A DNA stretch of 64,000 nt from Deltaproteobacteria bacterium. Its GTDB lineage: Bacteria > Myxococcota_A > UBA9160 > UBA6930. The stretch lies in contig JAJDAP010000085.1 of NCBI GenBank assembly GCA_029261795.1, positions 22,412 to 86,411 on the forward strand. The letters run 5' to 3'. Of this stretch, positions 56,966-64,000 are shown piece by piece. The first letter of the stretch is position 1. Each line of letters starts with the position of its first letter. Both the position numbers and the translations under genes were made by a program. Under the pieces are notes generated by a model. The model saw nothing but the letters and a program-made list of their open reading frames with translations. It was not told where the DNA came from and searched no databases.

Positions 56966-57261
56966 TTGACCAGCGCTTCCGCCTCCCGGCGCAGCGCGGC
57001 GCGCTCGGCCGGATCGACTTCGGGGATCGCTAGACGCTGGCCCGGGTAGACCCTTGCGGGGTCCTTGATCTGGTCCCGGTTCGCCAGGTAGAGCGCGGGC
57101 CACAGGGTTGCGTCGCCGATCGCGCGCGCCGCGATCTTCCACAAGGTGTCCCCGGTCTCCACCTGGTAGACGGCGGGGGCGCCCTCCTCCGTCGCTACCG
57201 CTGCCGCTGCGGGCGCGACGCCGAGAAGTGCGACGGACACTGCGAGAACGATTCGCCTCAC
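56962..57261 (-). CDS. Small secreted LysM-domain protein
   Basis: A 99-residue protein with a signal peptide (MRRIVLAVSVALLGVAPAAAAVA) and one LysM domain (YQVETGDTLWKIAARAIGDATLWPALYLANRDQIKDP...VYPGQRLAIP), which binds peptidoglycan. A Glu/Ala/Arg tail follows. It overlaps aspS and glpA by 4 bp, an odd place for it. It may be a cell-wall anchor in the periplasm; partner unknown. Confidence 0.88.
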   Translation of the reverse strand: MRRIVLAVSVALLGVAPAAAAVATEEGAPAVYQVETGDTLWKIAARAIGDATLWPALYLANRDQIKDPARVYPGQRLAIPEVDPAERAALRREAEALVK

Positions 57262-59114
57262 GTCGCCTTGCGTTCCCGCACGCGCAGGTGGAGTTCGTCC
57301 AACTGGCTCTTTGCGAGGGCCGTCGGCGAATCCATCAGGAGATCCTGACCGCGCTGCGTTTTCGGGAAGGCGACCACGTCCCGAATATTGTCGGTCCCGG
57401 CGAGCTGCATGACCAGCCGTTCGACACCGAAAGCGAAGCCTCCGTGGGGCGGAGCCCCCGCCTCGAGGGCATTCAGGAGGAATCCGAACTGGTCTTCCAT
57501 CTCGTCCTTGGCGTAGCCCATGATCTCGAGAATTCGGCGCTGCACATCGGAACGATGGTTGCGCAGGCTTCCCGAGCCCAGCTCGCTGCCGTTCAATACC
57601 ACGTCGTAGTGGGTCGCGCGCACCCGGCCGGGATCGCTCTCGAGCAATGCCAGATCCTCTTCGAGCGGCGCGACGAAGGGCATGTGCATGTAGGTAAGGC
57701 CACCGCCCTCGCTTCGTTCGAAGAGCGGGAAGTCGACGATCACGAGCGGATCCCAGGCTCGCCCATCGGTGCGGCCGAGCCGGCTGCCGAGATCGACCCG
57801 CAGGCGCGCCAGGACTGCATTCACCTGGTCGAAGCCATCGGCCTGGAAGATGATCAGCGAGCCGGGCCGCGCCTCGGTTCGCTCGGCGATGACCGCGCGC
57901 TCTTCGTCGGACAGGAACTTGACGATCGGGCTCTGCCAGCTGCCGTCCTCGGTGATGCGAATCCAGGCCAGTCCCTTGGCGCCCAGCTCCTTCTTGACGA
58001 ATTTCTCGAGGCGATCGATGTCACCGCGCGAGAGTTCGCCCGCATCGTGGATCGGCAAGCATTTGACGATTCCGCCGGCATCGACCGCGGCGCGGAACGC
58101 ACGGAATTCGCTGGTTGCGAAGAGGTCGGTCAGTTCCACCAACTCGAGCTGGATGCGCGTATCGGGCCGATCGATTCCGAAGCGGCGCATGGCCTCTTCG
58201 TAGGACATGCGCGGGAAGGGTCGTTCGAGGCTCACACCGGCGGCTTCCTCGCAGACCCGAACGGTGAGCTCTTCGAGAACCGCCAGCACTTCTTCGACAC
58301 CGACGAACGACATCTCGAGATCGACCTGGGTGAACTCGAGTTGACGGTCGGCGCGCAGGTCCTCGTCCCGGAAACAGCGGGCGACCTGGAAATAACGTTC
58401 GAAGCCCGAGATCATCAACAACTGCTTCATCAGCTGCGGCGATTGCGGGAGCGCGTAGAACTCGCCGGTGTGATGCCGGCTCGGCACCAGGAAGTCGCGC
58501 GCGCCTTCGGGCGTCGCCTTCGCGAGGATGGGGGTCTCGATCTCGAGGAATCCCTGTTCGGACAGCGTGCGGCGGAACGCCTGATAGACGCGGTGGCGCA
58601 ACTCGAGGGTGCGCTGGAACACCGGCCGGCGCAGATCGTGGATGCGATGGCGCAGGCGGACCTGCTCGTCGACACCGGAGTCGTCCTCGATCGGGAACGG
58701 CGGCGGCACTGCGGCGTTGAGGATCCGGACCTCGCTCACCTCGACCTCGACCTCGCCGGTCGGAAGCTTGCGGTTCACGTCTGCGGGATCTCGGCGCCGC
58801 ACGATCCCGCGCGCCGCGATCACGTACTCGCTGCGGATCTCCTCGGCACGACCGTGGGTACCGGCATCGTCGTCGCGATCGAAGACCACCTGGACGACCC
58901 CGCTACGGTCGCGCAGATCGACGAAGATCAGGCCACCGTGATCCCGGTGGGAATGCGCCCAGCCCATGACGGTGACTTCGCTACCGACCAGGGCCGCATC
59001 CACGTCGTTGGCCATGTGCGAACGGCGCAGCTCTGAAAGGCCGTCGAGGCGCACGTTTCCGCGCGCCCCGTGGGCTGCAGACTCGGCGGATGCGCTGCCT
59101 TCTGAATCGCTCAC
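57258..59114 (-). CDS. aspS: Aspartyl-tRNA synthetase, bacterial type
   Basis: A 618-residue AspRS. I start at the GTG of VSDSEGSASAESA with GGAG 9 nt upstream; the track TTG adds five residues. It has the OB anticodon domain (GWAHSHRDHGGLIFVDLRDRSG), class II motifs (FLEIETPIL, FRDEDLRADRQLEFTQVD) and a bacterial GAD insertion. The RDHGG segment carries the His reported for non-discriminating AspRS enzymes that also charge tRNA-Asn, implying a GatCAB route. That is inference. Start codon moderately sure. Confidence 0.92.
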   Translation of the reverse strand: MSDSEGSASAESAAHGARGNVRLDGLSELRRSHMANDVDAALVGSEVTVMGWAHSHRDHGGLIFVDLRDRSGVVQVVFDRDDDAGTHGRAEEIRSEYVIAARGIVRRRDPADVNRKLPTGEVEVEVSEVRILNAAVPPPFPIEDDSGVDEQVRLRHRIHDLRRPVFQRTLELRHRVYQAFRRTLSEQGFLEIETPILAKATPEGARDFLVPSRHHTGEFYALPQSPQLMKQLLMISGFERYFQVARCFRDEDLRADRQLEFTQVDLEMSFVGVEEVLAVLEELTVRVCEEAAGVSLERPFPRMSYEEAMRRFGIDRPDTRIQLELVELTDLFATSEFRAFRAAVDAGGIVKCLPIHDAGELSRGDIDRLEKFVKKELGAKGLAWIRITEDGSWQSPIVKFLSDEERAVIAERTEARPGSLIIFQADGFDQVNAVLARLRVDLGSRLGRTDGRAWDPLVIVDFPLFERSEGGGLTYMHMPFVAPLEEDLALLESDPGRVRATHYDVVLNGSELGSGSLRNHRSDVQRRILEIMGYAKDEMEDQFGFLLNALEAGAPPHGGFAFGVERLVMQLAGTDNIRDVVAFPKTQRGQDLLMDSPTALAKSQLDELHLRVRERKAT

Positions 59115-59232
59115 GAACGCCCACTCCAATGGCCCGGGAAACCAAAACCCGAGCGAAAACGGGCGGTTGTTACCACACGCCCCACCCCGGCGCCATCAGC
59201 GGACCCCGCGCGCCAGGCGCCGGACCGCACCG

Positions 59233-59315
59233 GAGCGGGGACGGACTCCTCAAGTTTCAAGATTGCAAGTTTGAAAAACTTGCAATCTTGAAACTTGAGG
59301 AGTCCGTCCCCGCTC
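59233..59315. repeat. Perfect 40-bp inverted repeat with 3-nt loop
   Basis: The left arm begins GAGCGGGGACGGACTCCTCA and continues CAAGATTGCAAGTTT; the right arm is its exact reverse complement over all 40 bp, with GAA between. Its outer end overlaps the last two bases of the GGDEF stop codon. It lies between the GGDEF gene and aspS. There is no U-tract on either side. The inner half is AT-rich against a very GC-rich background, pointing to an inserted palindromic element or a cruciform/terminator structure. Confidence 0.9.
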
Positions 59316-60705
59316 AGAGTTCGTTGGCGCTGGTGACCTGGTTGCGGCCGGCGGATTTGGAGCGGTACATGGCCTTGTCGGCGGCATCCAGGATGGCTTC
59401 GCGGGTGCGGCCGTGGGTCGGGTAGGTCGCGATGCCCAGGCTGGCGCTGATTCGAAGCACGCCCTCGGGGCCGGCTTCGAAAGCGTTCTCGTCGATGCTG
59501 GCACGGATTCGCTCTGCGATCGTCCGGGCCAAGCGTTCGCCGGTATCCACCAACAAGATGGTGAACTCATCCCCGCCGTAGCGGGCCACGGTGTCCACCT
59601 GCCGGACACATTGCATCAGCAACTGGGAGACCTGGCGGAGCACGTTCGAACCGACCAGGTGACCATGGTTGTCGTTGACCAGCTTGAAGCGATCCAGATC
59701 GAGGAAAAGGATCGAGAGTTCGGCGCCATAGCGCTCTGCCCGACGAATCTCCCGATCCAGGGCCTCCAGCAGGTAGCGGGCGTTGTAGACCTCGGTGGTA
59801 TCGTCGATGAAGGCACGGTCCCGCGCGCGCCGGTAGCGCTCGGAGTTTCGCAAGGCGATCGCCGCCTGGCCGGCCACGATCCGCGTCCGCTCGAGTGCCA
59901 GGGGCGGAAGTTCCTGTTCCTCGCAGACCACGCAGAGCGCGCCGGCCTCGCCGTCGTCACCGACAACGGGGACCGAAATGACGGATCCCACCTGGATGCC
60001 GGCATCGCGAAGCAATTCGTGGAACGGACCGCTCTCGAGGCGTTCGACCTCCTCGAAGCGGGTGGGATCGATCCGCTTGGCCCGACCCACGGCGTCGCGC
60101 AAACGGACCTCGTCGTCCTCGCTGAAACCCCGGCAGTGAACCCCGTCGGATCCCGGAATCGCGTGGCGTTGGTAGACCCCGAAACCGCGCTGGAGCCCGG
60201 TCCCCCGGACGAACAGATCCAAGGAGACGGCATAGACGTCTTCCGGTTCGAGACACGTTGCCAGGGCGCGGCACGAATCGTAGAGCGCCAGCTCGTCGCG
60301 CATCCGGACGTTCTCGGAGAGCAGTTTCTGACGCGCCAGGGTGCGCTCGAGCGCGAGGACCAGATCCCCGGCGCGCACCGGCTTCTGGAGATAGTCGGTC
60401 GCTCCCCGGCGCAGGGCCTCGACGGCACTATCGACCGTGGCGTTCGCCGTGACGAGAATGAAATCCGTTGCGGGCCAGCGACGCTGGACCTGCTCGAGCA
60501 GTTCCAGTCCCGACGCTCCCGGCATCGCCAGATCGGAGAAGATCAGCTCCGCGGGTTCGCGATCGAGCGAAACGAGCGCCTCGGCAACGCCCGAACACGT
60601 CTCGACCCGCGCACGATCTGCCAGCACGTCCTTGGCCAGTTCGCGATGGAAGCGCGTATCGTCCACGACAAGAACCCGAGGCAGCGGCGACATCGTCTCG
60701 GACAT
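59314..60705 (-). CDS. REC-GAF-GGDEF response regulator, probable diguanylate cyclase
   Basis: A 463-residue protein with receiver (LVVDDTRF, phospho-acceptor in FSDLAMP, Lys in YLQKPV), GAF-like middle (about 150-290) and GGDEF domain (FLDLDRFKLVNDNHGHLVGS, RYGGDEF). The inhibitory I-site RQVD lies five residues before GGDEF, so product feedback is likely. It should make c-di-GMP when phosphorylated. No partner kinase adjoins it. Its stop codon lies in the end of a 40-bp inverted repeat. Confidence 0.94.
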   Translation of the reverse strand: MSETMSPLPRVLVVDDTRFHRELAKDVLADRARVETCSGVAEALVSLDREPAELIFSDLAMPGASGLELLEQVQRRWPATDFILVTANATVDSAVEALRRGATDYLQKPVRAGDLVLALERTLARQKLLSENVRMRDELALYDSCRALATCLEPEDVYAVSLDLFVRGTGLQRGFGVYQRHAIPGSDGVHCRGFSEDDEVRLRDAVGRAKRIDPTRFEEVERLESGPFHELLRDAGIQVGSVISVPVVGDDGEAGALCVVCEEQELPPLALERTRIVAGQAAIALRNSERYRRARDRAFIDDTTEVYNARYLLEALDREIRRAERYGAELSILFLDLDRFKLVNDNHGHLVGSNVLRQVSQLLMQCVRQVDTVARYGGDEFTILLVDTGERLARTIAERIRASIDENAFEAGPEGVLRISASLGIATYPTHGRTREAILDAADKAMYRSKSAGRNQVTSANEL

Positions 60706-62218: not shown

Positions 62219-63424
62219 TCAGGCATCCACCTTGGGCAGGCGCAGCCCCTGCAGCTGGATGAAGCCCGTGGCGTCAGCTTGCACGTAGGTGTCCGCGGTG
62301 CCGGCATCCTCGAATGACGACATCGCTTCGTCGTACAACGAGACCGGCGAGCGCCGGCCCGTGACCTGGAGCGAGCCCTTGTAGAGCTTGATCCGTGCTT
62401 CGCCGGTGACGTTCGTCTGACTCTGCTCGATGGCGGCGCGGACGAAGTCCATTTCCGGCGCGTACCAGAACCCGTTGTAGATCAGCTCGGCGAAGCGCGG
62501 CATCAGCCGATCGCGCTCGTGCATCACCTCGCGATCCAGGGTGATGGATTCGATCGCGCGATGCGCCGCGTGCAAGACCGTTCCGCCCGGCGTCTCATAG
62601 ACGCCGCGGCTCTTCAAGCCGACGAAGCGGTTCTCGACCATGTCGACGCGGCCGACGCCGTGAGCACCGGCCAGTTGGTTGAGCCGATGCAACAAGTCGG
62701 CGGGGCCGAGGCTCTCGCCGTGTATGGAAACCGGGGTCCCGCGCTCGAAGCCGATCACGATCTCGGACGGCGTCTCCGGCGCGTCTTCCGGGTTCGTCGT
62801 GAGCACGAACATGTCCTCTTCGGGCGCGCGCCAGGGATCCTCGAGAATGCCACCCTCGTAGGAGATGTGCAGCAGATTGCGGTCCATCGAGTACGGCTTC
62901 TTCACCGTCGCGGTGACGGGAATGCCGAACTTCTGTGCGTAGGCCATGCAATCGGAGCGCGACTTCAGATCCCAGTCGCGCCAGGGCGCGATCACCGCCA
63001 ACTCCGGCGCCAGGGCGCGGAACGTCAGTTCGAAACGAACCTGGTCGTTTCCCTTGCCGGTCGCGCCGTGGGCCAACGCATCACAACCCGTCTCGCGCGC
63101 CACCGCGACGTGGTGCTTGGCGATCACGGGGCGCGCCAACGAAGTGCCGAGCAGATAGGTGCCCTCGTAGAGCGCGCCACCGCGGATGGCCGGATAGACG
63201 AAGTCGCCGACGAACTCGTCGCGGATGTCACGGATGATGCAATCGACGGCGCCGCTGGCCTTGGCCTTCTCGGGCAACCCGTCGAGCTCTTCTTCCTGCC
63301 CGACGTCGGCGCAGTAGGCTACGACCTCACAATCGTACTCCTCGATCAACCAACGCAGGATGACCGAGGTATCGAGACCTCCGCTGTAAGCCAGACAAAC
63401 ACGCTTCACGCCGGACCGAGCCAT
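62219..63424 (-). CDS. argG: Argininosuccinate synthase
   Basis: A 401-residue ArgG joining citrulline and aspartate in arginine synthesis. The ATP pyrophosphatase P-loop is [16 protein letters not shown]; also present are [13 protein letters not shown] and [20 protein letters not shown]. It stands alone here: no argH or argF adjoins. The 265 bp upstream (63425-63689) hold no gene that I recognise. It ends 24 bp from the convergent UbiB-like gene with no terminator between. Confidence 0.97.
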
Positions 63425-63689
63425 GGGAAACCTCCAGAGCGCGAGGAGTGTAGGCGCCGGGCGCCCCTCTCTCTAGAGCCTGGGTAAAGATCGCCGAGGA
63501 GCTCCCTGGGACGGCTCCCGCGGGTTCCACAGGTTTCGCGTGCTGGCGAAGGGTCTTGAGGGGTGGGGTGGCTCTCGACTCTTTGAGGAAGGCTCGCAGG
63601 TTGCTCTCGCGGGCGGGCTTCTTGGGTCGAGGATGCCCTGACTAGCGGTGCCTGCTCGAGGGGATGCCGGTCGGGGCCGCGGGGACGGA

Positions 63690-64000
63690 TCAGCCCGGAG
63701 CGGCAGCGGGGTCCAGGAGAGGACCGGCTCTCTTCCAGCCTTCGCTGAGGAGCCAGGTGTGGGTGAACGCGACGGCCCGGGTTCCGGGTCTTCCCTAGTG
63801 CCGCGATCACGAGATCGCGCGCCGAGCGCTTCCAGCCACCGAACCTTCGACCGGAAGAGGCGGGATCGATGCGCACGCTGCTGGGCGGCCGCTTCATGTG
63901 CCGTCTGGCATTCATCAGGACATACCGAAGTGCATTGCGCACCTGGGTCGGTGACTTCAAGACCACGTGGTGATACCGGTCCTTCAGGACCGGTCCAGAG
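63690..64000 (-). pseudogene. REP-associated tyrosine transposase (Y1) remnant, C-terminal
   Basis: The frame entering from the right edge reads LKDRYHHVVLKSPTQVRNALRYVLMNARRHMKR, the conserved region after the catalytic part of RAYT (REP-associated, IS200-like Y1) transposases. The usual ending WLLSEGWKRAG is found in a different frame (FTHTWLLSEGWKRAGPLLDPAAAPG) near 63700-63770, so a frameshift has occurred between about 63770 and 63850. The N-terminal part with the HUH motif and Tyr lies outside the window. It is probably inactive. Confidence 0.72.

Follow-up and report, generated by a model that had tools for sequence, protein, structure and literature searches.

The perfect inverted repeat beside aspS in this Deltaproteobacteria genome is very probably a non-autonomous mobile element, built of two TIRs of a TIRYT-type Y1/HUH element joined head to head and likely moved by a TIRYT (TIR-associated RAYT-like) transposase encoded on contig C79 of the same assembly. 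From sequence comparison, we infer that palindromes of this family move, and that they have settled mainly at the 3' ends of host genes.

The hairpin beside aspS and its dispersed relatives

The window, that is, the whole stretch of 64,000 nucleotides that was analysed, is part of a fragmented host assembly of 5.7 Mb in 139 contigs. At positions 59233-59315 it holds an inverted repeat with 40-nt arms, 100% complementary, around a 3-nt loop; its parts and neighbours are the following.

59233-59272, plus strand: left arm, GAGCGGGGACGGACTCCTCAAGTTTCAAGATTGCAAGTTT, whose terminal GAGC + GGGGACGGACTCCTCA is the TIR tip common to the TIRYT element on contig C79
59273-59275, plus strand: 3-nt loop, GAA
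59276-59315, plus strand: right arm, the reverse complement of the left arm
59314-59316, minus strand: stop codon (TGA) of the GGDEF gene, into which the palindrome end extends
59314-60705, minus strand: response regulator-GGDEF protein, the upstream neighbour, a host gene outside the element
57258-59129, minus strand: aspartyl-tRNA synthetase (aspS), the downstream neighbour, a host gene with an uncertain start codon

The preliminary description of perfect 40-bp arms, a 3-nt loop, no U-tract and an AT-rich inner half is exact, the arms being GC-rich outside and AT-rich inside. Its placement of the repeat between the GGDEF gene and aspS is right as to the site, except that the last two bases of the right arm fall inside the GGDEF stop codon (TGA, minus strand). 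No second hairpin of the same kind occurs in the 64-kb window. When folded as RNA, the palindrome forms a single hairpin (-77.1 kcal/mol; z = -18.8 relative to 200 shuffles), and this great stability, directly behind a stop codon, would suit a hairpin that serves the GGDEF/aspS region locally, as a terminator or regulator, and is maintained by selection. Such an explanation is highly improbable, and it is refuted as the origin of the palindrome because about 60 relatives are dispersed through the genome and the same place is empty in relatives despite gene synteny; moreover, the palindrome has no U-tract and found no match in an Rfam search. Any effect of a 3'-end RNA hairpin at aspS would be secondary.

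A genome search for the arm sequence, as had been proposed, returned these dispersed copies next to gene ends. With a strict pattern for both ends, 55 full palindromes were found in the genome, against 0 with the reversed-pattern control. Counted strand by strand, there are 66 and 64 instances of the half-site GGGGACGGACTCCT, again with 0 in the control. De-duplication left a catalogue of 57 copies, whose lengths, measured from GGGG end to GGGG end, form the classes 72-75, 81-84 and 89-92 nt; four copies are identical over 83 nt, the aspS copy among them. The arm family of the aspS palindrome is absent from all 60 relatives searched, from genus to order. The condition named earlier as favouring a local structure, a single copy conserved at aspS, is thus contradicted both by the copy number and by the absence in relatives.

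Comparison with close relatives, likewise proposed at the outset, located the empty site. The aspS and GGDEF genes were matched on one contig in 10 same-family genomes, and in a same-genus genome the C-terminus and stop codon of the GGDEF protein align directly, the stop being the same codon, while the aspS/GGDEF spacer has no palindrome. For about 20 further copies, the orthologous regions in the same-genus genome also lack the palindrome, several of them aligning continuously across the insertion join with stops at the same codon. The aspS palindrome is specific to this lineage, inserted right after the stop codon of the GGDEF gene. The initial impression of a recent mobile palindrome is borne out by dispersed copies at gene ends together with an empty site in a same-genus relative.

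Two variations on the full palindrome were also seen. At one stop codon (L133:3952-3982; G000:C29:80959), a remnant reads CTTCTAGC-GGGGACGGACTCCTC-GCTAGAAG, a single arm tip remaining between palindromic flanks. Some copies have longer palindromic flanks (up to 11 nt when contig ends are left out), for which arm extension was considered; the shared CT/GAGC context explains much of this, and in one copy the longer flank consists of a GGAGG ribosome-binding site opposite a CCTCC gene end.

A candidate TIRYT partner and comparison with known repeats

Among 30 Y1_Tnp matches in the genome, only one sits between GGGGACGGACTCCT ends. At this locus (L119, 6072-7127, contig C79), left and right palindrome halves bracket an intact Y1/HUH transposase gene (P0001), present in a single copy in the genome and flanked on both sides by inverted repeats of 32 nt. 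The open frame comprises 306 codons, counted from the first conserved Met; its protein scores above the cut-off for Y1_Tnp and below the curated cut-off for NCBIfam REP_Tyr_transpos (63 bits vs 80). A profile of 13 homologues, in which His60, His62 and Tyr119 are invariant, matches TnpA-REP of E. coli (PDB 4er8), and its C-terminal part matches DnaA (2z4r, E 9.6e-4), while a C-terminal HTH_23 match is weak and below cut-off (16.3 bits vs 24.6).

The original description of TIRYTs is of Y1 transposases whose flanking TIRs bear a GGGGWSAS-like motif and which in some cases are accompanied by dispersed TIR repeats (Di Nocera et al. 2013, PMC3733652). A later classification (Quentin et al. 2018, PMC6006769) grouped them with subclass 2.1, whose members end in a DnaA/HTH-like domain. 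Given its Y1 gene bracketed by TIRs, the TnpA-REP match and the C-terminal DnaA match, the C79 gene carries the features of a TIRYT transposase, predicted from sequence, and probably belongs to that subclass. The TIR tip GGGGACGG agrees with GGGGWSAS at 7 of 8 positions, the published consensus covering only the majority of TIRs. The matching ends are observed directly, and the single-copy C79 TIRYT would be the likely source of palindrome activity; another Y1 enzyme could have moved the family.

The preliminary description had linked the hairpin to a RAYT remnant 4.4 kb away through a shared 11-mer. A RAYT-type transposase does appear to be the partner, in the form of the C79 candidate, but the remnant was rejected in that role, as it belongs to a separate Y1 family without these ends in which the 11-mer is not conserved. 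The window ends, at 63406-64000, inside a copy of this second Y1/RAYT-like element (loci L051-L078) that is truncated at the contig end, which is about 1.1 kb long and present in roughly 28 copies, 76-91% identical and many at contig ends. The GGGGACGG ends are absent from this element, and the 11-mer at 63679-63689 varies among its copies, so that the resemblance is a coincidence. A classical IS200-type transposase of 161 aa (L121:709-1194, G000:C39; Y1_Tnp 138.7 bits) is distinct from both RAYT-like families.

The C79 element resembles the TIRtrons and TIRYT TIR families in having a RAYT-like Y1 gene inside long TIRs that start GGGG(A/T)(C/G).., and in the HTH/DnaA-like C-terminus of its product. 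TIRtron TIRs likewise occur scattered, whether alone, paired as dimers or grouped, and some are self-complementary, which is shared with the present family. Unlike the described TIRtrons, however, the repeats found here are nearly all perfect or near-perfect palindromes of 72-92 nt, their arms evolve in concert, and their tip is GGGGACGG rather than GGGGWSAS. The palindrome family is not previously listed, and its kind is described but little studied.

Features are also shared with the REPs, REPINs and TnpA-REP (RAYT) enzymes of E. coli, Stenotrophomonas and Marinomonas, which likewise involve a Y1/HUH enzyme, a hairpin substrate, the dinucleotide CT (and CA), placement at gene 3' ends and stops supplied by repeat ends (PMC8266576, PMC3116915). 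A REP or REPIN of the classical kind, tagged with GTAG or CGTC and dependent on a canonical RAYT for its movement, would draw on the same enzyme superfamily and the gene-end placement reported for REPs (PMC3733652), yet it is an unlikely identity for the palindrome, whose foot lacks an unpaired GTAG or CGTC tag, the former being the guide tag of REPs. Its perfect arms of about 40 nt far exceed stems of 6-13 bp, the partner's C-terminus is DnaA/HTH-like, as in TIRYTs, and the autonomous gene is carried between matching TIRs. Perfect inverted ends, many copies and small size would fit a MITE, the deletion derivative of a DDE-type insertion sequence with inverted repeats; this origin is very doubtful, since no target duplication, sought as direct repeats at every length of 3-10 nt, was found at 50 copies, and between these ends the only gene detected encodes a Y1 transposase. 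No DDE transposase gene bracketed by the same ends was seen among the DDE families searched.

Insertion sites and the concerted evolution of arms

The GGGG core is preceded by GAGC on 78 of 103 flank sides, and the dinucleotide before GAGC is CT on 41 of these 78 (background 5.5%, p = 6e-31) and CA on 9. Since CT and CA are the cleavage dinucleotides of TnpA-REP enzymes (PMC8266576), these 50 of 78 sides lend indirect support to a putative cleavage at CT/CA adjoining a single-stranded hairpin. What speaks against the favoured reading is CT|AG on both flanks, a greater symmetry than would follow from a plain rule of CT on one strand.

Placement relative to genes was assessed with gene calls based on open frames and codon-position GC only, and short-flank copies were excluded from flank statistics where possible. 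Among the 46 copies flanked on either side by 300 bp or more, a long-frame stop codon lies directly at an end in 30 and at both ends in 15. By codon-position GC, a gene stop lies 4-7 nt from the GGGG core on 47 flank sides. According to rough gene calls, about 2% of all intergenic positions are no more than 4 nt away from a stop. Many of the stops take the form T|GA, the GA being supplied by the element's terminal GAGC. At alignable sites, the gene of the same-genus genome ends with TGA, TAG or TAA at the identical codon position, and those genes were thus not shortened by the insertion. REPs near stop codons, and GTAG REPs supplying a stop, have already been reported (PMC3733652); the placement seen here is a known trait in a sharper form, which may reflect either target choice or the survival of insertions that do no harm.

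Comparisons among the copies make it clear that the arms of any one copy evolve in concert. Over 34 nt, the mean edit distance is 0.77 within a copy versus 4.08 between arms of different copies, and arms are identical in 36 of 57 copies, comprising 24 different sequences, while some copies retain mismatches. Changes on both sides were found in 11 of 40 pairs of the 75-nt class and 9 of 39 pairs of the 82-nt class, values that 0 of 500 shuffles reach in either class; although the counts are inflated by related copies, slid controls drop to 0-3 pairs. Length changes also affect both arms, as with an extra A in the 84-nt class and two missing bases in a 72-nt copy, and concerted arms were likewise seen in five other genomes. 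Selection for pairing alone would require two hits for each change and two matching hits for each length change. If pairing alone were selected through G.U intermediates, an enrichment of G.T among arm mismatches would be expected, and this was not seen (4 of 23, small numbers). Inverted-repeat arms are known to be homogenised by template switching (PMC8604942, PMC8794818), in which arms turn identical and substitutions arise on both sides at once. It would offer the simplest reading here, where the pattern extends across a family of mobile palindromes in several bacterial genomes.

An alternative source of matched arms is the assembly itself, in which an assembler might have perfected imperfect palindromes or folded flanks back. 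Differences between arms might in principle be merged by a graph assembler, and about six contig-end copies do have folded-back flanks, likely an assembly artefact caused by the palindromes. As a general origin this is very hard to credit beside the 46 copies with at least 300 bp of flank on each side, the synteny of both flanks with another genome at several sites, the coexistence of 24 arm sequences with retained mismatches, and the same pattern in five other assemblies. At L137, L079, L134, L092 and L105, the contig ends shortly past the palindrome, with the flank folded back on itself.

For the mobile element favoured here, the enzyme would bind the hairpin in its folded, single-stranded form, excise it and insert it 3' of CT or CA without target duplication. 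Insertions would persist chiefly at the 3' ends of genes, in many cases right at the stop codon. The arms would be kept matched by correction within a copy, for which template switching by the polymerase at the hairpin is the most likely process, with or without selection for movable hairpins.

Matched enzymes and palindromes across the order

A TIRYT homologue (E below 1e-20) is present in 19 of 80 genomes of the order, and inverted repeats starting GGGGACG, or nearly so, bracket most homologues examined. The generic pattern GGGGACG-N-CGTCCCC is commoner in genomes with the gene (median 14 vs 2, p = 1.5e-8). Among the palindromes listed, each genome has its own arm sequence, matching the TIR of its own transposase, and such matches between transposase terminal repeats and same-genome palindromes were found in seven other genomes of the order. 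In five of them (G022, G023, G008, G067 and G050), 0-1 of 22 nt separate the TIR from the palindromes of its own genome and 5-10 from those of the others, while in G002 and G032 the same matching was recognised by inspection; G005 and G009 have one palindrome family in common. This pairing of TIR and palindrome is the strongest evidence suggesting that the palindromes belong to these enzymes.

Two further arrangements were observed. G067 has a second palindrome family, GGGGACGTTCCTTCCG.., for which a matching TIRYT was not found in the G067 genome. On contigs C249, C341 and C349 of G032, one TIR arm repeatedly precedes units that are bounded by GGGGACG but differ in sequence, which points to TIR repeats of a clustered or composite kind.

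It is possible, and proposed only tentatively, that these pairs form an order-wide system, in which each genome's enzyme would maintain its own family of perfect palindromes. New variants would strike both arms at once via hairpin-templated copying, during transposition or replication, enzyme and palindrome would diversify together, and insertion at stop codons would keep host genes intact. Palindrome families of this kind provide a natural record of arm homogenisation, in which both-arm substitutions and length changes can be distinguished from selection for base pairing. Although TIRYTs are common, no reports testing their activity were found in the literature; with seven or more matched pairs of enzyme and palindrome, clear empty sites and CT/CA as the predicted target, the order makes their mobility directly testable.
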